DNA from: Escallonia rubra
Taxonomy: Eukaryota > Streptophyta > Magnoliopsida > Escalloniales > Escalloniaceae
DNA length: 64,000 bases
Assembly: GCA_033065855.1 (NCBI GenBank)
Contig: JAVXUO010001766.1
Location: 1 to 64,000, forward strand
Reading direction: 5' to 3'
The notes under the pieces were generated by a model. That model did not search any database, was not told the DNA's origin, and was given only the letters and a program-made list of their open reading frames with translations. Below, one piece after another: positions 3,101 to 54,283 of this stretch. Each line of letters opens with the position of its first letter. Within the stretch, counting starts at the first letter, position 1. A program made the position numbers and the translations under genes.

Positions 3101-6100
3101 GGGCCGAGGCTGCCGAGGCCGCCGACGCCGAGGCCGAGGCCGACCGGAGGCACGGCGTGCGCGGAGATGTATCTCACGGCGCAAAGGGGAATGTTGGTGG
3201 ATTGCCGAAAAAGACACGGAAGAAGCAAAGTGTGCGACGGCGCGACGGAGCTAGCGGGCGATCAACGCTAGCGCCGGGCGACATGTTTGATGATGATGAC
3301 GTCGCGCCGGTTGAAGAAGCGGGGGTGCCGTTGAGCTTCATTGGTAGGGCGAGGAGCTTTGATGCAACGCCAAGCCACAGCAATATTTTGTTGACGGCGA
3401 AGGGGGCGGTGCCCGGATGCCCACCCAAGGAGCTTTGGAGGGAGCTTGGCCAGCGAGTGGGTGCGGATGTGTTTTTGGGTCCTTTCGGTGCGTCGTCGAT
3501 GGCGGAGAGTCCGATGGTTCCTTCGCCGTATGTTCGTGCGCCGAGCGGGGGGGTCGCTCCGGTGATGTCGCCGAGGTACATGCCGGGTTTGTTGGTGGAA
3601 CGACTAGATGTGCCGTGGTCGCCGGTGATGTTCAAGGGCCATAATACCATGCCGGTGGGGTGGAATTTTTGGTGCATGTATATGTTGGAGCAGTCGGGTT
3701 GGGGGGAGAGATTGGAGGCGTTGGGATTGGTGTCTGCGATAGAGGCGACGTTCAAGGTGATTGATCCGGTGAGGGACTTTAAGGGCTTGGCGTTGTTGCT
3801 TTCGAGATGGAGCTCGCAGACGCATACGTTCATCACGGCGTTTGGGGAGATTGGGCCAACGCTTCTCGACGTGATAATGTTGACGGGGTTGCCCATGCAC
3901 GGTACGGAGAATGCTTGTGAGCTGGAGTTGACGGCGGCGGAACGGTTGACGGTAAAGGAACTGCAGGGGTTTGCCTCGTTGATAAGGAGCAATCGCAAGG
4001 GTACGTACAGCGGGTGGCTCAAATACTTCTATCGTACGGCGACCGCGTTACCCGGGCAGAAGTCTGCGTCGGTGAGAAATTTTCACGCGGGTCCTTGCTA
4101 TAAGGACAAGAGATGCGAGCTAGCGGGGTTTCTTGTCATGTTCTTGTCGAGGTACGTGCTTATAATGTCTTCCCTTTAGTATTGTTGCATGTTGTACTTC
4201 CATTGTTCTTGTATGCATAGAATGCTGAATTTTTATACTTAGAGAAAAAAAACGTGTCGGAAAGATAGTGTAGCCATATTGCCATGCAACAGAGTTTACG
4301 TTCAGAATAGGGCGAGAAGGTTATGATAGAAATTGTATGCTCTTATGCTTGTAGGTTTGTATTTGAGGGGACGCCGGAGGATGGCGTGTCCCCGAGGGTA
4401 TTCAAGTTGGCTGTACGTATGGCTGGTGGGGGGCGCGTCGGGCTGGCCCCCATTTACTTAGGCACGCAGTACTCTCGTCTAGATCAGTTTGCCAATGATG
4501 TACAGAGGTCGTATGGACGCTATCAGGTGACGACGTACGTAGACTGGATGTTCTTGCAGCGGTATCTATTCGAGGTCTACATGGATTATCGGCCTCGTGA
4601 TCTTCCCTAATTACATCCGTCACCGCGGATGGTTACGGTGACTCGGCCGGGCAAGTCACGTGAGGTTTCGGCTTGGTACGCAGGTGGCCGAGTATATGCC
4701 TGGGCGGGCGGGAAGAGGCCCGGGCGTGATTTGGCAGACATTTTTGACGATCGAGATGAGTGCGTTCCCCGTGCGTATACCGGCATGCATTATTCGTACG
4801 GTACTCCTCCATGGATGGATCTGCAGGACACTATGGTGCGACTACACGGTCGAGATGAGCTGACGGACACGGCGGTGGCCTTACTAGTGGCGTACTTTCC
4901 AGGGTGGCTACCCGTATTGACTGATGATGGCGGGAAGCCGGCTGAGAACAGATATTACGTGGCGAGATACAGCCCCGATCGATTGTCCTCGAGCTTTGGT
5001 TATGATTTAGAGCCCCCATGTGGCTATACGAGGGCGTGGGAGGTGAGGAAGGCTTTTGGGTATACGATCTTAAAGTGGGCGCGGAAGTGGCCGGTACCGA
5101 CAGAGGAGTGGAGGAGGCCCGGGACGCTATCGACGGGAGTAGCGACGGTTGAGTATGCGCGATGGTGGGATCGGGTACTGGCGACATGGTCGGAGTGGTT
5201 GTCGCAGGAGCCATCCGACAGGCAGCAGGTCGATGTCTTTGCGGGGGACAGAGGACTGGGACTGGTTACAGCGCAGGTCGCGAGGCAGAACGGCATGTCG
5301 GTACTACTTACAGGCGTATCAGATAAACCGGTGCCAGCACGCGCGCCACGGGCGCCGGCAGCAGCAGGTGGTCCGAGGGTGCCGGGTGCTGGCAAGGGTC
5401 CCATTTCGTCATTGAGAGTAGGTATGATGGTGGGTGCACAGCGGACAGGCGCAGGTCCTTCGACGGGTGGTGGACGTAGGCCGAAGAGGTCGCGAGAGGT
5501 GCTGGAGGAGTGTGACTCCGAGGTTAGTGTAATGCTTTGCTTTCGTTGTACAGTTGCCAATTATCATGTTAAGTGTTCTCTAATGCTCGGTTCTCTTTTT
5601 CTTTTTGACAGGAGTTCGATGATGATGATGGTGCCATTGACGTGGAGTAAGACGATACCACAGAGTATGCCGAGGCCGTTACTGATGATACTGAGGGGAT
5701 GGATCTTGAGGCAGCTGAGGAGGATGAGGAGGCAGATGTAGATGCGGCCGATGAGGTCGAGGAGATGGAGGCCGAGCCGGCCTATGAGGGGGAGCCGATG
5801 GATAGTGAGGCCTTCGAGGAGGCCGCGGCGGTAGAGCAGGCAGCGGCCTACATTGTGGAGCCAGTCAGTCACCCGGAGCAGACACCAGCATATGTTGTGA
5901 AGCCGGTCGTGTCGGTTGGTCATTCGAGCCCGTCACCTGTCTTGGTCGAGGAGGTATTCGGTGGCCCGATGGGTCACACGTTTGAGGGTGATGATTGGTG
6001 GGCACATGCGGGGGTACATGCCGGGTTGCCGACCACACATGCGGTGGTTAGAGATTCGTTGCCACGACGCGGTGTACCTGATTCGTCTGTTGTGGAGCCG

Positions 6101-14289: not shown

Positions 14290-14754
14290 GAAACAGGGTG
14301 CTTATGTCATAAAGTGCCACATGTCGTCCCCTGGGAGTGACACGTCACCAGGGGGTCCTAAAATATCGGTTCTCCGTTGGACTGCCGGTTCCTAAATTCG
14401 CGTTGCTTGCCCCACACAGCGTCGCTCTACCTGTCTGAGAAGACTGACCATACCGCGGTAGCATGATCAGAGTAAGCCCGTTGCCCCAGCCACCAATCCA
14501 AGCCCTTACTGAATCCCATGAGGCGCGTCAAGAGACGCGCGGAGAACCTGACAGCGGTGAGGGTTACCCCTGTAGCCAACTGCCAGGCGGACTAGGCGCG
14601 ATGCCTTCCGAAGACCTGTTCCCGTCCCGGAGTGACCCGTGGGTCATTGTCCTGGTGATGTCGACGATTGACAGTAACGTGAGTGGACATGGTCGCAGCT
14701 CAGTGCTCCGAGTCCGTGGCGAGGGGTCCTCATACCGGAGCCCCCTGTGACTGT

Positions 14755-14923
14755 GACGGCGATGGCTATGAGGTTGTGAGCCCATCCCGGTATGGGGGCC
14801 GAAGCCCCCCTTGTGATTGAGACGGCGATGGCTATAAGGTTGTGAGCCCATCCCGGTACGAGGCCGAAGCCCCCCTTTTGATTGAGACGGCGATGGCTAT
14901 AAGGTTGTGAGCCCATCCCGGTA
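14755..14923. repeat. About 65-bp tandem repeat, three copies, in the 5' LTR
   Basis: Units start with GACGGCGATGGCTAT near 14755, 14821 and 14886 and contain 'gttgtgagcccatcccggta'. They lie upstream of the TATA box in transcription terms. The matching part of the left LTR is outside the window. Confidence 0.85.
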
Positions 14924-18131: not shown

Positions 18132-21100
18132 TTAGTTTAGTTCTAGAAGCTGAACAGTTGCATCAAATCTGAAGGCATCACCAGGTTCGAATTCGGATTC
18201 CAGATCTTCAAAGCTTTGTTCTACTCTCAAATCTTTGCTGACTTTTAAACCTTCCTGCAATATGTCGTCAAACCGCATAAACGTTAAATGTTGCAACCAT
18301 CGGAGGAAAGTTATACTAATTCAGTTTTGCAATGTTATGTCAGCTAAGTAGTATGAACAGAGTCAGGATCAGCTCAAATGAATAGAGAGAATTTAAGGCA
18401 AAGTTAAACTGCTTCAATTCTCAAGGATGGCCAGAAAAATGTACCAACCTGATGGCAAAACAAAACTACTTCTTTTCAGAAAAAGACACGCAAGTCTAGT
18501 AATTGGAGGAAACTGCAAGTTTATTTCTTATTACGAGAAGTTCAAAAAAAAAAAATTTCTCTCTCTCACACACACACACACAAACACATTCAGAACATGG
18601 CTGGGTGTTAAACGATGCACTTTAAGAGAGAACCAACATGTGCACCAAAAGACAAATTTGTTTTTCTTTTCCTGCTTGACAAACTATGCCTTTTGAAAAT
18701 TAGCCAAAAATTTAATAATAATAAAACAAACTATGCTTTTATCACATGGTCTCTTGCAGAAGATCATTTAACCTAATTTTACTAAAGATACTGGAACCCC
18801 AATTATCTAATGGTGAAAGTTTTGACTATCCATTTCAGTAAACAGCGACTACGCCTGGAGTGCGTCACGTGCCACTAATTTGCGATACCCACAACATTAT
18901 TTTAACCCTTAGACCAGAAAATAAGGTGTGCATCTTGGCGCACCCGTTGGGGAGACACCCATCAACGTCCCCCCTAGGAAGCCACCAGGTGGGCGTCCCT
19001 AGAGGCCGCCTACCATGGCATCCTTGCAGGGGCTTGCGCACCTCTCTAAAATGTCACTATCATGACCAACCCACCCACCCCCCAACATATCCATCTCAAG
19101 ACGCCTACCTGGGGTGGTCAAACCCTCCTTACTCTTTTCCCTCTTCAACTTTCCCCCACCTCCTACCTCATGCACCCATGACCATGCACCTCATAACACC
19201 TTGCGTGAATGCACCTATATCACCACAGTTGACCATACTTATGCTCTATTCTATCGACATACAGGAAATTTTGGTGTGGCTGGATACCTTTGTCCCATGC
19301 CAATATGCCCAGTACCACACCCGTTACCGTGATGTCCACCAGTCACGCCCATATGTTGTCAATATGCTACTAGGCCGCAGCCTTGTGTTCACCGGCGGTG
19401 CACATGCGTCCTTCCTTCCTATGTTACGTGCCCCCCGCACAACACCTATATGTCGCACTCCCGCGCCGCGACTATGTTGCCTGCCCCTGGCACTGCCTGC
19501 TATTGCCCCGTCTATGCGACGTGCCCCAGATACCGCACCGTACCTCTGCACCTATCTGTCGGCCTCTACATTCACCACACCATACTCTCCCGCCTGGTTG
19601 TGCAACATGCTTTGACCTGCCCTTTAGAGTGCACACCAATATTACCTTAGGGAGCTCCAACTGCTCCGGCCAATGACTCCTCTTCCGCCACGTAGGCGAC
19701 TTCTCCAAGACACTACCTCAGTGAACTATGAGTGCTCCGGCACGAGAACTCACAGCGGGACAAGGGACTCCTCCAGGAAACTGGCTCATCGCGCTCCGAT
19801 TGCTTCGGCACAAGGACTCGTCACGGGATAGCCTACTCTTTTTAGACACTATCTTGCCAAGGGCTGCGTGACGATTTCTACGTGCTCCGGTACCAAGGGT
19901 TATTATTCAGGATCATGATCCCTATGTCACTTCGATATGGAGCAGGTCTTCTGAGGGCATTGTGCGTGGTCCACCTTACAGTCGGGCATAGAGCCTATCC
20001 CACCACTTCCAGGCTCTTTGCGTCTCTTCACGGGATTGAGCAAGCGTATTTGACAAGTATCACTCAGAAACATGATAAAACGCCAGGGAAAGATCTTTAT
20101 CAACAAAATTGGAGTACAATAATAAAAGTGGAGTGCAGTTGTTAATCCCTTTCATGCAATAGTAACTTAAAAAATGAAGAACATCTCACATATTTGACCC
20201 GTTACTGACCATCTGATATAGGTGCAGAGCGTACCATCTTTGAATCAAATGTTGACATGACAGATGTTATAAAAAAATTTAACTTTAATGATACCAAGTG
20301 TCTTATTAGTCATGCTGGTTTTGGCATTCACTAAATGAAGATCAAACATAAAGAAAGACAAAAGTAATGGTAAGAACAAACAAAGTCGAGCATCTTGCAA
20401 GTAAATTTGTAAGAAAAGGTAGAGAAAAAACAAAAAGAATATAGAAAAAGTAAGAAAGGAATGCAAAATATTAGGTATACCCTCCTGATGTATTCAGCTA
20501 TGGTAGAATTGATTACTTTCTTGATGACTTCCCTGTAAACTTTGGAAGGTCCAAGAACTTGTAGAAGAATGTCTCTGGGTATCTGGCACACGAATGTAAG
20601 CATAATTAACAACGGCTTTTGAAGCAAACAAGATCAAGATGTATATGTCTCGAACATGCATCGTGCCTTCTTCCTTATATCTTTCTTCTTAATATCTTCT
20701 AATCCGCTACTCTGTTATGCTAGTTTGTGGGGGGTAAAGGTACCTCGAGGGAAGGTTTAATGCTGCACCTGATGGTAAAGGTGGTTTCTAGAGAGAAAGT
20801 ATGAGGGTTCTGCAACTAAGCTAGCATTATATTAGTTGAAAGAATATACCCGTGCAAAGTAGAAGAGAAGAAAGAACAAATAGAAATAAGACACCACCGC
20901 ATAATGATGTCAATTGATCTTTTAATTTGTTTATCAGCACTTCCTTACTAATAACAATGACCTACGATACTTGGAAGTGAGGCTTGTTCAGTTGAATTTA
21001 TCATCAATCAGAAGAAAGGAAAGAACAATGTCAATAGTGGTTGTGGAATCATGAGCTTCATACAATGAGCCATACCAACAGAAATGTCCGTATATGCAGA

Positions 21101-24100
21101 TAGCTTTCACGTGAATAATACAGAACTTCACAAAGAAGAGACCTTTTTTCAGATAACTATATGCTCCAAAAAGCATGAAAACCAGGATTTTAAGGTTCAG
21201 AAAAGTGGTTCTTATAGAAATGTTCATGATTGCATGCTAGCAAGTCGCAATGGTCAACCCTGGGGATACAAACCCAATTTGCAGCTGTTCCTAGAAGCCA
21301 CTCTTGGAAACTACAAGTAGGAAAGAAAAAAATATGTTTTATCCGCTTATATAGTGTTCATACTTTCTCGACCTATGGTGTCCACTGTACACCTTAGTGG
21401 TCTAAATGTACCAAGTAATGTAACAATCTACTTGACTTTTACTCAGACAGCTGTTTCCTTAGTTAGCTACAATTGTAATAAGGTGACTAAAGCTAAAACA
21501 AAAGTAAGTAAAAACTTACATCCGGTGTTTTTCCTGATAAATCCAAGTTGTTTGCCACAGAAAAACATCCAATGCAAGAAAGAAGGAATATATTAGACTC
21601 AGAAGAAGTAATCAGGAAAAGAAGATTGAAAAATGTAAAAAGGGAGCAAAGCTGCAATCAGGTCCATACAAAGCAAAGAAGAAAACAGAGCTCGGTCCAA
21701 GAATAAAGTTCAGACACATGTCTTGACTTGGAAGGTTTGTTCGATACTACATTTGTTAAGAAAGGTTAAAAGAAGACTGCTTCCAATAAAGCTCACCTCC
21801 TTTGGTTCTTCGAAAGCCTGGAATGGGCTGAGCATCAGCAACCATGTTTGAGAACACAAGGTCAAAAATTTCTTCAGTTTTGCCACCAGATACCTCTATG
21901 CCTATCTGTTATTAAGGATATAAATCATGAAAAAATGATAATATAGAAAAGGACAATAGAGTATAACGCAATTCTATCATAACATACACATTATCTGTGA
22001 CACGGCAATTGAGCACGCGTAAAAATTGTGCCAACAACACTGTTTTTAACTTTCATATTTACGTATAACGCCTTTTATGTACAGTCTGAAACAAAAAAGA
22101 AATATAGGTGTTTCTACCTTTAGTTCGTCACCCTTGTTTGTACTAGTGGAAACCGAAAACCCTTCGAATCGTGAAGAAGATACTTCAGAATCTTTCACAC
22201 CTAATTTTGGTGGAGTTATCATCCCATAGACACCCATTAACAGCATTGGACAAAATGTTAAGGGCATTAAGTACTTGTAGAAAAAACTGACCTGGTTTTG
22301 CACCTGCTGATACGGCTTGAATAGCAAAATGTTTAGCGCTCGTTCTGCACATGAAAAGGTAAATCATCATAATGAGTTTCCCATGCGTAATAGGGTACAA
22401 AGTCGACTTTAACTTTCAGAATGCTGCAGAGGTAGTGCTGCTTTGACAGTCCAAGACCACAAAATATTGAAAGATATATGTAATAAAACCAATAAAGGGA
22501 AACTTCATCAATCAAGAATTATTTCCAAGTTAAAGAAAAATGAATAGTTTCACTTTCTGAACATCCCCTATATATTATACGAGGGATCGACTCCTCAGAA
22601 AATGCAAATTCCCCACCTTGACCCCGGGTCACGGGTTCAAACCATGGAAACAGCCTGTCCACACAGCAGGGCAAGGTTGCGAACATTAACCTTCCCAGAA
22701 CCTGCAATTGAGGGAGCCTCGTGGGCTGAGGCCGCGCTTTTCTTAGAAAATTCTGCTTATAACAGCACTGCCACTATCACAGAAGGCCTTAGTTTTGTTG
22801 GACACAGGCAATAATCATGATCTTTCCTTGTCAAAACCACCAAATTGTAAGCTCAATGTCGCCCAAAAATGTTATTCGCTTTTCCTAATTCCAATCCTCG
22901 TCAATGAGTTATGTAACATGTTATGTTCAGTAAAAAAAAAATGCTGTTCACCTTTTTTTTTTTTTTAAATTTCAAGTGAATTCAGATAAAATATATGGGC
23001 AGCATGCACAACCTTTCCAACTAAGAGTCTACTGCCAATATACAGTACTTTCGTGTTATTTAATGCCTACACGGTATTGAATTGACTAGTAAATAAACAA
23101 TAATGGTCGATACAGATGCTACATCACTTCGCTGAGAGCAGCTTTTGCAACCGCTAAAAGTTGCATGGAAGAACCTCATTGCAGAATTAGATACCCTCTA
23201 ATTAAGTCAAAATTTATCTGATTCAAGAGTGTCATGACTCGGGAGATACTACCAGTGGAAGCTCTGTCCAAGCGGATTGTCATTCAATGGTTTTGAAGAA
23301 AACTATCAATCTGGTGGCATGGTATAGCAAGGAAGTTCATGAGCTTATTTCCAGTCAAGCCCTTGACCAAGCCACCTTGGGCATCGGCCAATGCACCTGC
23401 CAATGCCAATAAAAGCAGCAAAATCAGCTTTCCTAAAGGATGGGTATGTTTCCTGGCATACTTTGAGGCCTTCCAATGCATGGCATGGTGAAGATGAATA
23501 TGTTTTGGAGGACCTAATTCGTGTCGAATTGGTCTTGTCAACAATACTCATTTTGTTCAATCTATTCTGTATTGGTGTAGTCAAACATATTGTGATCCAA
23601 GTACTTCCTGATATTGTCTAGCTGCAGAGAGTAATATTCCAGCATATTAGTTGCACGGATCTGGTTGTGGCGCAAACTTACGTGATTAGCAAACTCGAGT
23701 GGCATCTGTTGCTCCACATCGAGCGGCACTCCAAAATTATCTCTTCCACGTTGCAGATTCCACTCAACATCACTGCTAAATTGGATGCCTAATTTCACAC
23801 ATTTGACTTAAATAATCTAGTTTTTTGCACTCGAGAAGTTTGACATGTTGCCGCCCTCATTTCATTAGCTGTGAAAAATGGGAAGTCATACCTAAGTAAA
23901 GGAAAAACAAGAGCATGCACCTTCGAAGTAAAGAAAAAACAAGAGCATGCACCTTTACTTTAAAAAAAAACTTATCCTAGTTTATCTGATAAAAATTCCA
24001 GGAGTTAAGGAAGTTCAAGAGGCTGGGTTAAAATAAGTAGCACCTTTCACAAAATTGTTGGGCTCTGTATTCCATCATAAGAGAAAAGCATATCTCCTTA

Positions 24101-45890: not shown

Positions 45891-46008
45891 TATAACCTAG
45901 TTATTAGGATGTCGGAAGCACAGAGAGATGAGATGATGTTGTAGTTGCCGAGCTCTCGTGACTGGAAAAGCATGGCGACCCTGACGACGTCGTTTAGACC
46001 TTCTTCAC
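45891..46008 (+). repeat. 118-bp direct repeat, downstream copy (functional start of gene B)
   Basis: The exact copy of 44587-44704. Here the sequence goes on into the rest of exon 1 (to 46034). It leaves only 81 bp between the transposon end and the start codon. Confidence 0.95.
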
Positions 46009-49000
46009 CCCTTTGTCACCCTCGAGGCTCCACTGTAAGAATCTTGCCCCAATTCATTCCCTTCACAATTGCCATAACATACAGCATTCGCTAGCTGCTA
46101 ATAAAGCATGCCAAGTTGTCGATTATTACTGCGTCGTGCGTGTGTGACTGTGTGTGCACTTGCATGGAGCGAAGCGGCTCTGTGGGGCGGGTCACGGTGC
46201 ATTCGCGATAGAATCTTAACCTTTTCGCGACAAAATAATGCGTGACAAGAATGCCCTACGACGGCTGTGTAGATTAGGACAAGCAATGCATAAATAATAA
46301 GAGAAACAATTACAATTGTCCGAAATTTTTGGAATTCGTTAGTACTAGGAAGTTAACTTCAGTTTAAAAGCTGTAGTGGAGTCTCTAGGACTAGGAAGAA
46401 TTATTTGTAAACGGCCAAATGCGCAATTTGTGAATGTGTTAGTTCCGCAACAAAAGTGATGCGCATGAGCACGTACAGGAGGGAACATCCCTGGAATATT
46501 CGGTTTTTACCATGCCATTCTATGCTGTAGTGACCTGAATTTATATTGCTTTGAGCTAATTCATTGCTTGCTTTGTCCTGCTGGGCTGCTTTCTACAGCA
46601 GTTTAATATTAGGAGTGCCAAGGTGCATTTTCTAGCTGGCCATGCTGCAACAACTACCACTATACGCTCCGAGCGAAACGTATGCTGGAGGTGAATCACC
46701 TGCCACCTAGCATTTGTTTTTAAAAATTATCCTTTCTTCTATAGTTATTGTGTTTTGCGTATCATTCTGAGTTCTACAATCAGATATATTGTGCTATATT
46801 GTTCTTGAGCGAGTATTAAGGGAAAATAATTGCCTAATTTGGCTGGAAACCGTGTTTATCCTGGTGGGGCTCATGGCTGCTCTGGTGTCTCTTTCGCTGG
46901 TTTCATTCTGTGTATGTTAAGGCTTGATTGTTTAGTATCACAACCAGGAACTGAACAATTTCTAGCGTAGCTTAAAAGATTTCTGCGGAGTTTTCAAGGG
47001 ATGCTTGCTTTCATTTGTACCTCTTTAGGTGGTGTTCATCTGATTGTCTTTAAAATTGGTGTATATTCCCATCAAATGTTGGATATTTTCAGTGCTCCGT
47101 GCAAGTATGGTTTTCATGTTTGCTTTTACCCCAAAGTTCCGTAATAATATGGGTGGATGTGCTTGTTTTTTTTATGTTTGTAGACAATTAAGCCACAGCA
47201 GTCTCGATATCAGAGGGCGTGGATGTTTTCTTAAGCCAATATCTGCTGTTCGTTCAGGTGATCTGAACTTCAAGTTGATTATGAAGCATATGTAGCTAAT
47301 CTGGTTCTTTCTCCACCTGTGTGTTTTTTGGCGATGACTGAGTCGTAACTTTTGCGTACGGCGGTGTAGGTTTAGAGGCTTCAATCACAGACCTGAAGGA
47401 CAGTGCAATAACTGTGAAAGATGCCAAGACAGTTGTAGAGTCTCAAGATGATGAGAAGATACAAGTGAGTCTTCTAGCTTCACTTCTCTTACAACGTTGT
47501 TGTTCATCAAAATGCATCTCCAGTAATGGAGTTTTCCATGGTTTTGTTGTTGTATACTCCGAGGAAAATTGTGAATTTCCCGTCAAATGCTATTGTTTTA
47601 GAACTAGATATCTGCGCTTATCAGTTGTATTAATGGAGTCATCTACCTTTAAATATGTCATGCTAGTCCTTCAAGCTTTGGTCTCCTACCGAAGTGGTCA
47701 GTTGGTAACTAATGGGATTTAGGTGGTCATGTACAAGTCGTGTTACCATTGTGTTGGATTCGCCTGATTTGCATTTGACAATTTAATACCTTGATTAATC
47801 AAGTTTGGGACCAAACATCAGTGTATGTAACGGAATTTAAGTTAGAGGACTAATGTTTCGAGGCAGAGGATAATTTTAGCATAACTGGCAAACTTAAAGG
47901 ACCAAAATATTCATCAGCCTTTCTCTGATATATTAGCTTTTACCTGTGTACTCCAAGTAGACCGCATATTGATGCAGGTTGTATGAATCTGACGGAGAGA
48001 CCCTGCCACTCATCTTAATAAATTACTTCCTATACAGTTTCTTTGAGTATAACTACACCGAATAAGGTTGTACACTGATATTCATATGAGTAGTCCTTCA
48101 TGTGTTGTCAATCCCTGGATACGTCATTGATGGACACACCATCATCAGCTAGCCCCTCATGTGTTGTCATTGTTGTATTGTAGTCTGTTGTTTTTTCCCG
48201 AAGTGTTTATTTGCTGAGAACCAAAATTCTCGAGAATTGCAAGCTCCCAGATATCTAACTTTTGATCATTTAACACTTCAAGAACTTAAATTTTAGTGCT
48301 CGTGTAACCAATGAAAATTGGTATTAAGAGGACGGTGGAAGCATCTTGTTAGTGAGCACCATCACCAGAAACCTGGCGTGCATTGTACAACCGTGGAATG
48401 GCTAAGTCCCTCATGGTTCTCCATTGCACTGATCAGGACACCAAAAAGGAACATAAAACTCCAAAGAAGGTGTAGAAGAAGAAATAATGGTGAGAAAAGT
48501 GCTCATAACTTGCCCAACCTATGAATGTTGCTTCTTCAGAATCACAACACCATTCTCTCTGTTAGCGATATCTAATGTCCAACCTGGACCAGCAATTGGT
48601 TTAGCGGCACAATGTCTCCTACCTCTTCTCTCCTCGGCCCTTGACATCTTCTTTGACTACGCCTCACCCTTAACTGGTTACTAACACTCCTGTCCAACAC
48701 AAGCAACACCACCCACCAGCAATCATTCTCATGACCTGATGGTGAACACTTCAACCACACTGCTCGACCTGATCGCCAACCATGGCATACATCAAGTACG
48801 CCTTAGGAGGGGCACCTTTCAATTCCTACACCTTAACTTTGGTGTACAATTACTCTGTCCAACTCCGGGTGTAAAACTGCGAGGGGTGGCACCCCATCTC
48901 ATGTTTCTCCACTGGTAACCTCTGCAAAAAGCAAAAGAATAGTGGCAGAGACGGGCAGGATAATCTCTCCTCGCTTTTGCAATTTGCCATCTTGTCCAGG

Positions 49001-52000
49001 AAAATAGCCAAAGAAGAGCGGAAGAGAAGGATGAACATATCAATGTATACACGTTGCCACTGGTACTCTTGGCTGATGGTTAGGAGCTGTATCTATGGAG
49101 TGATCTGTTTGCAGAGGTCAGTGTACACGGCGTTAGGATATGATATTGAAAAGAGTTGTATTCCCTGTGTTTCGAATGGATTATGGGCGGTTGGAAACCC
49201 CTTGCTTGCTGGGCAAGTCTGTTATGGTCTTCCAAAATCCCTGAAGCCAGTGGAACAATATTTTCATGCATCTAGTTCACGACAACTAGTGATTTTTCGT
49301 ACTCTTTTTGTTCTCTTTGTGAGAGATGATGCCCTCATTAGAATACATTAGGTTTTCTTATTATAAAGCACACCTTTTAAAATACTTTAATCTGTCTACT
49401 AAATATTTTAAGTTTTAACAATATGCTCAGATATGGTGTTAATTGCTGGAAGTTAAACTAGACTTATATTTTTGAACTGGAAGAGTTCTCCTGCTCTATG
49501 TTTTCCTTGAGCTGTTTACATGGCAAAACTGTATGTTCTTGTAGTTCTGTATGTTCTTTCATGACCGCGGGTAATTATGATATGCGATTGGTCGGATCGC
49601 AATCGTCTATGGAGAATTGAGTTTGTGGTTTAAGACTACCGAATTACTGACCTGAGGTTTTAGGTATGGTGCGATTTAGTGACCATGAATGTTCCACCTG
49701 TTTCTTGGATCTTATTTGTCGAAATTCTCGTTTTGTGTTTCTGTAGCTAAGAGTGGACTTGACAGGGAAGGAGACACAAGTTGTATTTGAGAAGGTTTTG
49801 AGAAATTTAGCTCGTACAGCACCACCAGTTCCAGGCTTTCGCAGACAAAAAGGAGGTAAAACACATGTCAATTAATCGAGACAGCCTTTTCCTATGTTTG
49901 GTTGTGGTCTTCATTTGCTTGGTTTCTCTCTAGCATGAAGGTGTCGATTACCATAATTTGGTCCAATAAAGTAAAAATCAGATTTAGATATTTCGTTTAC
50001 TTAATATGCATGACTGATATCATTGTCCGTGCAAGGCCGTTTTTTTCTGTTTCCTTTTTGTTCTTGTTTTTTCCCTTTAGTTTTTGTCCCCGCCTATAGA
50101 TGTCTTACCGAGATGCTGTCATAGCAAGTACCTCTATATATGCCATATCGATTTGTTTTATACTGGATTACTTTTACAGCCTTCACTTTAGTAATGACAG
50201 TTTTATTAGTCTTATAAGTTGGCGAGATCTTTTCCCACACATGTTAGCACTTTGAGATGCTATCTGCTTATATAATATGCGTGATACAAAGAGCTTTTCC
50301 TCCAAAAGGTGTTGGATTATCAAGGTATTTAATTGCATACTGGAGGCTCTGGCATTTCTATTTGCGTTAATATTAGTTTTGAGTTATATGCTATTGGCAA
50401 AATTTGAAATATCTGCCACTTCAACTGTTTAGTTCTAAGTGTGTTATGCCATAAAGTACTTGGTAGTACTTCACTCATTCACTCAAGGACTTCATGATGG
50501 TTGCAAATGCAGTGGAATTTAAATGCACTTACTGATCCTACTGCTAGCCATCAGGGGGGGGGAACTAATTTTTCTTTTTGTAATTTCTCTTATTGTCAAA
50601 GATATGGCTAATTGCATAATCCTTTCTATCCCTTGCTAGTGGGCTTATCTCACTTCAAAATGAGGTACTGACATATTCTTCCCATGTGGTTTCAGAGTTT
50701 GGAACTTCATACGAGGTTGTGTTTTTGTTCCAATTTTTAGTTACTTGGAGTATAACCTTGTTTTGGTTCTTTATCTTAAGGTGGACTGTAGCGCGTGTCA
50801 CGACCCAAACCCACGGGTGAGCCCACGAATTGTGCCTGTGACCGGCCACAGGCCCACTAAGCCTCCCTAGGGCTTTGCCAGGCCTAGTATAACCTACACT
50901 CAGAATTCATTCCAACTTGCTAATTGGCTATCAAGAGCCTCACTTAGAAATTTCCTTAATTGTCATAAATAACTTCAGTTACATAATTAACTCCTTGGAG
51001 ATCAATGATCCAACCAATCCTCAAAAACATAAAATTTGACTGCAATGTCATCTAAAGATTAACAATTGCTCTAAGAGAGATTATGTCCCTAACGACCATC
51101 TCCCGCGAGTCCGTCCTCGTTTCCCCATGAATGTCGGGTTCATCTAAGTAGTCACCTGAAAACATTTATAAAAGAATGAGCTTGGGGCTCAGTAAGTAAA
51201 GAAACCATATCCCTAAAATAGGTTTTGAGGTTTATAAATGCCATGGTTTCTTCGATTTAAAACTGGTAAACATTTTTACAAGAGATACTATACATATAAA
51301 TACTTTATGAAAGCAATGCATCCAAGATTCTCAGAACCGGAGTATGACATCAAGAAGGCTCATCAACAACTATCACAGTTCATCATAACTTAGGCATGTT
51401 GCGGTCAGCGTACAATCCCCCCTGATTAGGGCCCACAATCCCTACTCCACCCGGGATAAATTTTATTTGGTCAGGGTACAAGGCCCCCTGATTAGGGCCC
51501 ATAATCCCTCCTCCCCCTGGGATACATATTATTGTGGTCGCATGGGCGAACCACGAGCAACAATATTGCGTCAACGTATCATCCCGTCGACTAGGACCCA
51601 CAATCCAACTTTTCCCTATGGATATGGGGTACAACAACCAAGCCAGAGACACCGTTTCATTCAACATAAGCCAACTTTAAAACACTACTCCTATAAACAA
51701 TGGCATTTTTAATTCATTTTTCTTATCAAACCAATTTCAGAACATCAGAAGCATAACAAATACTCAAAACTTTCATTTGGTAAAATCACATATACATATA
51801 CATATATTAGAAAATAAGTTGTACGGACAAACATGGCAGGAGTACGTACCTGAATAGTTAAGCAGTTCATCTCCCAAGTCTGCCCTAGCTCTTGTCTATT
51901 GGAACCTAACAATAAATCATCCGGATGTTACTCATTGCCGTTAAATCATGCCTAGGTGCTAAATTTCTCCCAACTGAGTGTTACCAAAATACCCCTAGAC

Positions 52001-54283
52001 TTGTGTAAAATTACCAAATTACTCCCGACACCTGACGTGACATTTCACACTCAGAAATAACCCAAAACATCCTTTTAAACAACTAGGTGGTTTTTTTGGA
52101 CAAAAATGGCTTTATGGGAATTCTCAGTTTGGAACCCTAAATGTCTCCTTAAATTAAACACCAAGGTTCCTATTTCAAAATATATCCAAACAGCGCCGAA
52201 ATGCCACGAAATTTCATAAGCTCAAGCGTCTCAATATGCTTAGATCACTGAAAAAATTTCGGTTAAAAATAATTTTGTTCAGTATATCAAATAATTCAAA
52301 AGCCTTTTTTCAAAATAAGATCATTTCAGGCCTTTCGCATGCCTAGAAAAATCTCATAAAACACAAAAAATAAGGGGATATTCAGTTTTGCACTTTGCCC
52401 AAATATGCTTAGGATTGGCTTAAAAGTTTTGGGCAATTGACTGATCTGTAATTCTAGAAACAGCATTTTTCAGCAAATTCTAGTTTTGTAGATTGACCAT
52501 TTTGAAGAAGAAACATGACAAATATTAGAAAGCTCAAAACTACAAAGTTAGAGTAGACTTACTGAGATTTTCATAAATATACGGGTCACAAAAATCCAAC
52601 GAGTAATGACTTTTTTATAGCAAATCGGAGTGGCTGATAAACCCAACACATCTCCGTGCAGACCGGTTTTATTCAATGATTATTTCGGAGCCGAAATACT
52701 ATGGATCTCATAAAACTCAAAACTACAAAGTTGAAGAAGACTTTCTGAGGTTTCTAGAAACATAAATTTCACAAAAGACCCATGAGTAATAAATTTTCTA
52801 TGACAAATCGAGGTGGCTACCAGAAACCGAAAAATTCTGGACTTCTGCAGTGGATTGACTTTAATATTTCAATGTGCAAACGTGAGATTCTGAGAAAACT
52901 CAAAAAGAGTTGATGGCAACTCAACGACGTTTTCAGAAAGTGTAAAATCATTTCAATCGAATTTGAAATAAAGGAGATATAATGAAAACCCTAACCCCTT
53001 CTTATGCTGCTCTATAGCAGCCTTCTTCTCACACACCCCCGCATCAATACACACACAAAAGTTACCAATTTCACAACAAAAACGTATACAAGATCCAAAT
53101 TCATGGCTAAACTAAGGAGAGAGTTTAAAGATTTTATTACCTTGAATTTTCTCTTGCCCTAGCTTGGTTTTCCCCTCCCTTCTCTCTCCTTTTTCACGTG
53201 AAACAGGGGCTGGCAGATCTGCTAGGACGGCTGCCCTCTCAAGGTTCTCTTTATATATGGTTGCCCTAGTTTGGAAATTTCTAAAAGACCCCCCACACTT
53301 AGCTAGTGTTCTCATCTCACTTACATTTCTTTAAAAGACCACCATATGATTTTATATTAAGCGTGAGGAAAATAAAAAATTTCGACAACTAAAGTTTCCA
53401 TCGACGAAATAAAATTTCGGGCGTTACAGTGCGTGTCAGTCTCAAGTTCATCATTTTTCCTTCTGGAATCTGCAAATTGTTTTGTCCCAGCAGACACAAG
53501 CCCCAGCCTATGGTCTATCCATCGGATCACAAAATTTTTATCCAGTGTTTAGAAGAACTTGGAGAAAATGAAGGTGTTCCCATGCAAAGCCTTGTTACAA
53601 TGAATTTTTATCTGAGCTGTTCAATGATTTGACAGCTTAGATTAGACTCTAATCTGATGTTGACCATGCTGCATCTCATATGAGCGGGCATGAAGTTGCT
53701 ATTTCAATCAACTGACAATATTTTGTGTACAAAAGTTTGCAACACCTGCACCTTTTTTATAGCAACTCCAGGCTTATTAAACTACTAATTCTAGTCTAAT
53801 TATATTTGCATGTCCATGCGGCTACTCCAGGAAAAACATCAAATGTAAGTACCCTTTGCTTCTAGAATCAATTTCCATGTTTGCTTTATAATGAACTTTC
53901 CTGTTGCAACCGAACTGCTAACTTTTATCCTTTTCTGCTTCAACTCTGCAGGTCCCAACAGATTTCCTGCTACAAATGCTTGGTGAAGAGCGTGTCACTA
54001 GTTTTGTCATACAAGAAATCATTAACTCGACTCTGGGCGATTTTGTAAAGAAGGCAAGTTGATCTTTACTCATTACTTCCTGTTTTTGAGCTTGAATAAC
54101 CTTATGACATCATCCATCCACCAGGAAAATTTGACTGTTAAGGATAATAAGATTAACACTACTCAGACTGCGGAAGAACTCAAATCGTTATTTGTTCCTG
54201 GAAATGAATTTGGATTTAATGCTACACTGGAGCTTGAAAAAACAGAAGCTGAAATAGCCAGTTCAAGCCCCTCTGAGGAATGA
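45972..54283 (+). CDS. Gene B: plastid trigger factor-like protein (N-domain only), 235 aa
   Basis: Eight exons join in one frame (708 nt): 45972-46034, 46599-46690, 47184-47257, 47370-47464, 49747-49855, 53831-53844, 53952-54053, 54125-54283. The start MATLTTSFRPSS and a Ser/Arg-rich first 75 residues look like a plastid transit peptide. From residue 109 the protein resembles the ribosome-binding N-domain of bacterial trigger factor: 'VPGFRRQKGGKTSNVP' (residues 136-151) corresponds to the GFRxGKxP loop, and 'FVPGNEFGFNATLELEKTEA' matches the end of the domain. No isomerase or C-terminal domain follows (bacterial trigger factor is about 430 aa). By eye it is about 45% identical to gene A over the domain. 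All introns are GT-AG except one with a GC donor. The role, inferred from family, is to bind nascent chains at plastid ribosomes. Confidence 0.88.
46035..49746 (+). other. Introns 1-4 of gene B
   Basis: Introns 1-3 are short (564, 493 and 112 nt). Intron 4 (47465-49746, 2.28 kb) is longer and has a GC-richer patch around 48520-49000 with short open frames on both strands, possibly an old insertion that I cannot classify. Confidence 0.6.
50796..53428 (-). repeat. Ty3/gypsy solo LTR in intron 5 of gene B
   Basis: On the minus strand it begins TGTAACGCCCGAAATTTT and ends GGGTTTGGGTCGTGACA, typical ends of long gypsy LTRs. A TATA-like 'catatataaag' is at about 53250-53262 on the minus strand. 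The flanking 5-mers are GCGCG and GTGCG, a probable target duplication with one change. There are no internal genes and no second LTR, so it is a solo LTR of about 2.63 kb left by recombination. Its orientation is opposite to gene B. Confidence 0.8.
53831..53844 (+). other. 14-nt microexon of gene B
   Basis: GAAAAACATCAAAT is bordered by CTACTCCAG and GTAAGT. It finishes a Gly codon split with exon 5 and codes for Lys-Thr-Ser-Asn in the ribosome-docking loop. It has the same length, phase and place as in gene A. Confidence 0.88.
54054..54059 (+). other. GC-AG intron donor in gene B
   Basis: Exon 7 ends AAG and the intron starts GCAAGT, the usual context of the rare GC donor class. The 102-nt exon length is the same as in gene A, whose matching donor is GT (GTATAC). 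Any GT donor nearby would break the frame. Confidence 0.8.

Follow-up and report, generated by a model that had tools for sequence, protein, structure and literature searches.

A 14-nt microexon in the docking loop of two Tig2-like genes of Escallonia rubra

A 64-kb stretch of the Escallonia rubra genome (the window, positions 1–64,000 of contig C2049) carries two genes that each encode a trigger-factor N-terminal domain standing alone. Both genes, A on the minus strand and B on the plus strand, contain a 14-nt microexon. Very probably, this is a conserved plant Tig2 microexon that is ordinarily always included, that two old paralogs inherited together with their exon layout, and whose downstream intron is removed first. 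Judged by its sequence, the 14-nt exon is real, and its use in this plant is predicted on the same grounds. An exon of this kind has been reported before, and the microexon itself is, with high likelihood, also known: a 14-nt microexon has been described in the Arabidopsis gene AT2G30695 (Yu et al. 2022 Nat Commun, Fig. 2e; PMC8831610), which encodes Tig2 (Ries et al. 2025; PMC11731035).

Exon layout of the two genes

The gene models cover exons 4–8 of both genes and, for gene A, a proposed exon 3; more 5' exons lie outside the models (Table 1). Exons 4–8 span 22200 to 18132 on the minus strand in gene A and 47370 to 54283 on the plus strand in gene B. Exons 5, 6, and 7 are equal in length in the two genes (109, 14, and 102 nt). 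The intron phases are also equal at the four introns mapped on both sides, being 1 before the microexon, 0 after it, and 0 at the other two.

Table 1. Mapped features of genes A and B, in window positions
Feature	Position	Strand	Basis
Gene A exon 3, proposed, 53 nt	22292..22344	-	open frame, AG/GT borders and phase only
Gene A exon 4, 83 nt	22118..22200	-	
Gene A exon 5, 109 nt, end ...PGFRRTKG(G)	21797..21905	-	Trigger_N match, spliced exon 4–8 protein
Gene A intron 5' of microexon, 263 nt, GTGAGC...ATCAG	21534..21796	-	
Gene A exon 6, 14-nt microexon GAAAAACACCGGAT, end of split Gly codon + KTPD	21520..21533	-	AG/GT borders, frame
Gene A intron 3' of microexon, 937 nt, GTAAGT...GCCAG	20583..21519	-	
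Gene A exon 7, 102 nt, IPRDILLQVLG...AEYIRR	20481..20582	-	
Gene A exon 8, final coding exon, end ...VQLLELN stop	18132..18254	-	
Gene B exon 4, 95 nt, LEASITDLKD...DDEKIQ	47370..47464	+	
Gene B exon 5, 109 nt, end ...PGFRRQKG(G)	49747..49855	+	
Gene B intron 5' of microexon, 3975 nt, GTAAAA...CTCCAG	49856..53830	+	
Gene B exon 6, 14-nt microexon GAAAAACATCAAAT, end of split Gly codon + KTSN	53831..53844	+	AG/GT borders, frame
Gene B intron 3' of microexon, 107 nt, GTAAGT...CTGCAG	53845..53951	+	
Gene B exon 7, 102 nt, VPTDFLLQMLG...GDFVKK	53952..54053	+	
Gene B exon 8, final coding exon, end ...SSSPSEE stop	54125..54283	+	

About 25 kb separate the mapped exons of the two genes, which run in opposite directions. 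The final intron of gene B (54054–54124) is of the GC-AG type (GCAAGT...CACCAG), and its counterpart in gene A is GT-AG. Upstream of gene B, an ATG at 45972 opens a Ser/Thr-rich frame. No tRNA genes were found within the window. Long imperfect direct repeats at about 152–1921 and about 15.0–16.8 kb are separated by about 14.8 kb (main offsets 14685–14883), consistent with the two ends of a large element of the LTR type. Between the two genes, at about 25.8–27.7 kb on the minus strand, the open-frame list contains broken frames that we take, by eye, to resemble a Copia-type polyprotein.

Domain content and divergence

The spliced protein of gene A exons 4–8 matches the Pfam family Trigger_N, the trigger-factor ribosome-binding domain, with 46 bits (E 8.6e-12), well above the cut-off of 22.2. 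The protein of gene B exons 5–8 scores 38.1 bits (E 2.4e-9), and 44.5 bits (E 2.5e-11) when exon 4 is included. The domain assignment made in the first-pass annotation of this DNA is borne out by these scores. Neither spliced protein (exons 4–8) matches any other Pfam family at E ≤ 10. Both reading frames stop after Trigger_N and contain no PPIase or C-terminal chaperone domain. Since both encode a lone trigger-factor ribosome-binding domain, A and B are Tig2-like. Arabidopsis Tig2 is a chloroplast protein composed of this domain alone (PMC11731035).

The genome (566 Mb, 3222 contigs) was searched with the exon 5–7 protein of gene A and the exon 5–8 protein of gene B. They returned four and five places, respectively, all within the two genes, and no further Tig2-like copy was found by these searches. 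A six-frame search of the genome with the Trigger_N profile had no match at E ≤ 0.001 and missed even A and B, likely because matching goes exon by exon. A two-sequence profile compared with solved structures gave eight matches at E ≤ 1, none of them significant: two trigger factors (E 0.19 and 0.20), five viral capsid or Gag proteins, and one Hbb chain (0.38–0.92 for these six). Bacterial relatives were sought by pattern, and none of the 143 matching stretches was confirmed.

Across exons 5–7, the two genes share 31 of 75 residues, with a third-position identity of 0.33. The NG86 estimates are 0.50 for dN and 1.91 for dS, the latter near saturation. The paralogs are therefore old, and the common position of the microexon is not merely the product of a recent duplication. 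dN is also well below dS, which indicates that the genes were under constraint for a large part of their past. This argues against the idea that one gene, B being the likelier given its upstream intron of 4 kb, is no longer expressed and keeps the microexon as a relic. In favor of that idea, introns of 2282 and 3975 nt precede the microexon in gene B and its last intron is GC-AG, but its exons 4–8 are open and have GT-AG or GC-AG borders. We consider the loss of expression improbable.

The microexon completes a split glycine codon

The first-pass annotation had placed a 14-nt exon at the same position and in the same phase in both genes, and the borders and frames confirm it. Both 14-mers (21520–21533 in A and 53831–53844 in B) are bordered by AG and GT. 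Exon 5 ends with ...AAA GGA G in both genes, and the GA at the start of the microexon completes this Gly codon. The following codons are AAA ACA CCG GAT (KTPD) in gene A and AAA ACA TCA AAT (KTSN) in gene B, so the encoded residues differ in the last two only (PD vs SN). Exon 7 opens in phase 0 with IPRD in gene A and VPTD in gene B. The earlier count of four added residues is about right, as the exon provides four codons and two bases of the split Gly codon. The intron after the microexon begins with the 5' splice site GTAAGT in A and B alike; for the intron before it, this site reads GTGAGC in gene A and GTAAAA in gene B.

Skipping and intron retention

Joining exon 5 directly to exon 7 shifts the frame in both genes. 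The predicted disruption in the middle of the domain is thus upheld. The skip product of gene A contains 29 foreign residues and stops 13 nt before the last exon junction, and that of gene B contains 10 foreign residues and stops 67 nt before the junction. Their Trigger_N scores are 12.7 and 19.2, respectively, both below the cut-off. By the 50–55 nt rule of nonsense-mediated decay, the skip transcript of gene A would likely escape decay, and that of gene B is a decay candidate. These unlike fates speak against a conserved regulatory purpose. A retained upstream intron would likewise terminate the reading frame; in gene B it happens by chance to read GGKTHVN and then stops. At 49856–49875 of gene B, the exon 5 splice site reads on in frame as GGT AAA ACA. 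A retained intron there starts with GGKT and mimics the real loop, which is a trap for gene prediction.

The Arabidopsis exon has been followed by RNA. In one chromatin sample, 55 reads had both introns of the AT2G30695 microexon spliced, 41 had the downstream intron alone spliced, and none had the upstream intron alone spliced; the figure legend gives no skipping count (PMC8831610). Among 69 constitutively spliced microexons, 16 show this downstream-first pattern, and the exon serves as their example. From its family and size, it would occupy the same place and phase as the exon described here. The same study reports that 35 of 45 conserved microexon clusters are common to flowering plants and moss.

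The first-pass annotation had further suggested that inclusion of the exon could turn the protein on or off. In such a scheme, the microexon would be skipped in some tissue or in the cold, producing a truncated Tig2. The exon length is not a multiple of three, skipping truncates both proteins with likely escape from decay for A and possible decay for B, and loss of Tig2 in Arabidopsis results in a cold phenotype (PMC11731035). In addition, GRP20 is required for the inclusion of some plant micro exons (PMC10808074), but the main text of that paper, as available, contains neither 'trigger factor' nor 'Tig2'. A conserved switch would hardly yield skip products as different as those with stops 13 and 67 nt before the junction. 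Because the Arabidopsis case belongs to the constitutive set (PMC8831610), the switch was rejected as the main reading, and we regard it as quite unlikely; none of the present results speaks for it. Minor skipping is possible, as coding microexons generally show some alternative splicing, most with a PSI above 0.5 (PMC8831610).

The agreement between the paralogs does not call for regulation either. It is expected because both would inherit one exon layout. Their conservation is most simply explained by inheritance with the whole layout and is not evidence of regulation.

Similarity of the two microexons

Between exons 5 and 7, there are 31 open frame-restoring mini-exons of 2–38 nt with AG/GT borders in gene A and 89 in gene B. 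With so many candidates, a small frame-restoring exon is by itself weak evidence. The 14-nt candidates with AG/GT borders number six in gene A (three open) and seven in gene B (five open). The microexon pair is the only one among these that is alike, matching at 11 of 14 bases; the next pairs match at 5 of 14. When both stretches were randomised 1000 times with a first-order Markov model, a 14-nt pair with at least 11 matches appeared three times; this test is somewhat lenient because the length of 14 was set after the fact. This agrees with the earlier claim that the conservation across the paralogs exceeds chance. Among the open frame-restoring mini-exons of 2–38 nt that are followed by GTAAGT, the microexon is the sole one in gene A and one of two in gene B.

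That the pair is a chance artefact of hunting introns for any small frame-restoring exon, for which the AG/GT rules alone offer ample candidates, is extremely improbable and was rejected on the randomisation and the identity of the exon lengths (109/14/102), to which the GTAAGT after both copies and the published 14-nt microexon of a Tig2 gene (PMC8831610) can be added.

The codons of shared residues are identical in five of five cases for K-G-G-K-T across the exon 5/6 border and in 9 of 26 elsewhere (one-sided Fisher P 0.012, for a stretch chosen after looking). Within the microexon itself, three of three are identical, compared with 11 of 28 elsewhere (P 0.08). A permutation of the longest run of equal third bases gave 0.15. 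A purine-rich splicing signal in the microexon, such as the poly-purine motif of GRP20 (PMC10808074), is only a lead. The introns flanking the microexon have 21 of 60 bases equal upstream and 22 of 60 downstream, raw counts that include the common AG and GTAAGT and for which no background was computed.

The docking loop and a Tig1-like gene

A genome search with Trigger_C returned one piece, located on contig C925 and scoring 24.2 bits (cut-off 22.7; E 0.009). An exon reading VPGFRPGKRVPESIL lies 4.8 kb upstream on the same strand, and we infer that the two belong to one Tig1-like gene. At about 3717–4490 of locus L012, on this contig, lie two exons of the Tig1-like gene, with an intron directly before VPGFR. 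Its loop, VPGFRPGKRVP, is uninterrupted within a single exon, and an AG acceptor directly precedes VPGFR.

The Tig2-like loops, GFRRTKGGKTPDIP and GFRRQKGGKTSNVP, are five residues longer than the Tig1-like GFRPGKRVP (tblastn E 0.010 for gene A and 0.003 for gene B). The tblastn gap lies over GGKTP, which are mostly microexon residues. In a weak profile alignment with a bacterial trigger factor (E 0.19), a six-residue gap runs from the split Gly onward and also covers mostly the microexon. In Arabidopsis Tig2, the GFR ribosome-docking motif is found in a loop seemingly longer than that of Tig1 (PMC11731035), which supports the earlier placement of the exon in the ribosome-docking loop.

Scoring of shortened loops against Trigger_N divides the extension differently. 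The best score for gene A, 61.6 bits compared with 46 for the intact protein, is obtained when TKG of exon 5 and TPD of exon 6 are removed and GK is kept; this type of double deletion was scored in gene A only. Other forms of gene A score 50.1 bits without GKTPD, 50.5 without KTPD, 53.4 without TKG, 48.9 without GGKT, 47.0 without KG, 48.2 without GKT, 53.7 without TPD, 55.2 without TKG and DI, and 49.7 with the loop as GFRRKGIPRDIL. Gene B, with 44.5 bits when intact (exon 4 included), scores 47.3 without GKTSN, 49.4 without KTSN, and 51.3 without QKG. All loop-shortened forms, 10 of gene A and three of gene B, are above the intact score. The score is 31.4 without PGFRR, and 40.1 (A) and 38.6 (B) without the residues after the loop.

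The bacterial-type docking motif has the form GFRxGKxP. On the profile reading, the microexon would hold the K of a GFRxGKxP-like motif and three extension residues. The first-pass view of the four residues as a loop extension is therefore partly sustained: the alignment gaps fall mostly over the microexon, but the Trigger_N profile prefers GK to be kept. The residues assigned to the extension differ with the method, two alignments favoring the microexon and the profile scoring splitting it between exons 5 and 6. A purely inserted microexon is one possible reading. In either case, the 14-nt exon falls within the stretch by which the Tig2 loop is extended.

It is possible, and we suggest it tentatively, that the change from a chaperone's docking domain to Tig2 has its genetic basis in the microexon, which would carry much of the loop extension that sets Tig2 apart from Tig1 and bacterial trigger factor. 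Its gain, together with its introns, would then date the shift from chaperone to ribosome assembly factor.

Discussion

Constitutive inclusion of an inherited microexon most likely proceeds as follows. One ancestor would have given both Tig2-like paralogs their microexon along with the remaining exon layout. The GTAAGT after the microexon would let the downstream intron leave first, so that the microexon and exon 7 (102 nt) become one exon of 116 nt. This fused exon would be recognized as a normal one, and the upstream intron would be removed with a delay. The microexon would be required for both the reading frame and the longer docking loop. Because skipping gives a truncated protein, the skipped form would be an error product and not a programmed state. 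The present analysis provides the position, phase, frame, family, exon-length identity, and 5' splice-site pattern of the microexon, and the 14-nt Tig2 exon of Arabidopsis, its downstream-first order, and its constitutive class are taken from print (PMC8831610, PMC11731035). Escallonia rubra probably splices the microexon as Arabidopsis does.

Gene finders that miss the 14-nt exon would produce broken Tig2 models in this plant, and the microexon literature warns likewise. Our literature search did not find 'trigger factor' and 'microexon' together. A search for Tig2 trigger factor with splicing gave one reference-list mention of splicing in the available text of PMC5587573; 'trigger' is absent from that of PMC12409088, and 'trigger factor' and 'Tig2' from that of PMC11096116. 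Two points are added here: two anciently diverged Tig2-like copies in one plant both keep the microexon, and the microexon coincides with a loop extension that is absent from the Tig1-like gene of the same genome. The link between the microexon and the Tig2 loop extension can be used to test, in concrete terms, how a domain of a chaperone became a ribosome assembly factor.

The closest known system is the AT2G30695 microexon (PMC8831610). Genes A and B match it in gene family, as assigned by domain, in the 14-nt size, and in being coding and flanked by introns. The removal of the downstream intron first was observed on RNA in Arabidopsis, and the downstream GTAAGT here fits the same order. The published exon is from a single gene and the exon described here is present in two paralogous copies. 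At the protein level, A and B have in common with Tig2 (PMC11731035) the presence of Trigger_N only, GFR in an extended loop, and an end at the domain end. However, that study speaks of one second trigger-factor gene in Arabidopsis, and this plant has two copies that have diverged widely over exons 5–7. Like A and B, the Tig1-like gene found elsewhere in this genome contains the VPGFR loop of the trigger-factor N-terminal domain, but its loop is five residues shorter and contained in one exon. The 9-nt microexons of AP2 and invertase genes (PMC8831610) are likewise conserved inside a core protein motif. Those exons are multiples of three, unlike the 14-nt Tig2 exon.
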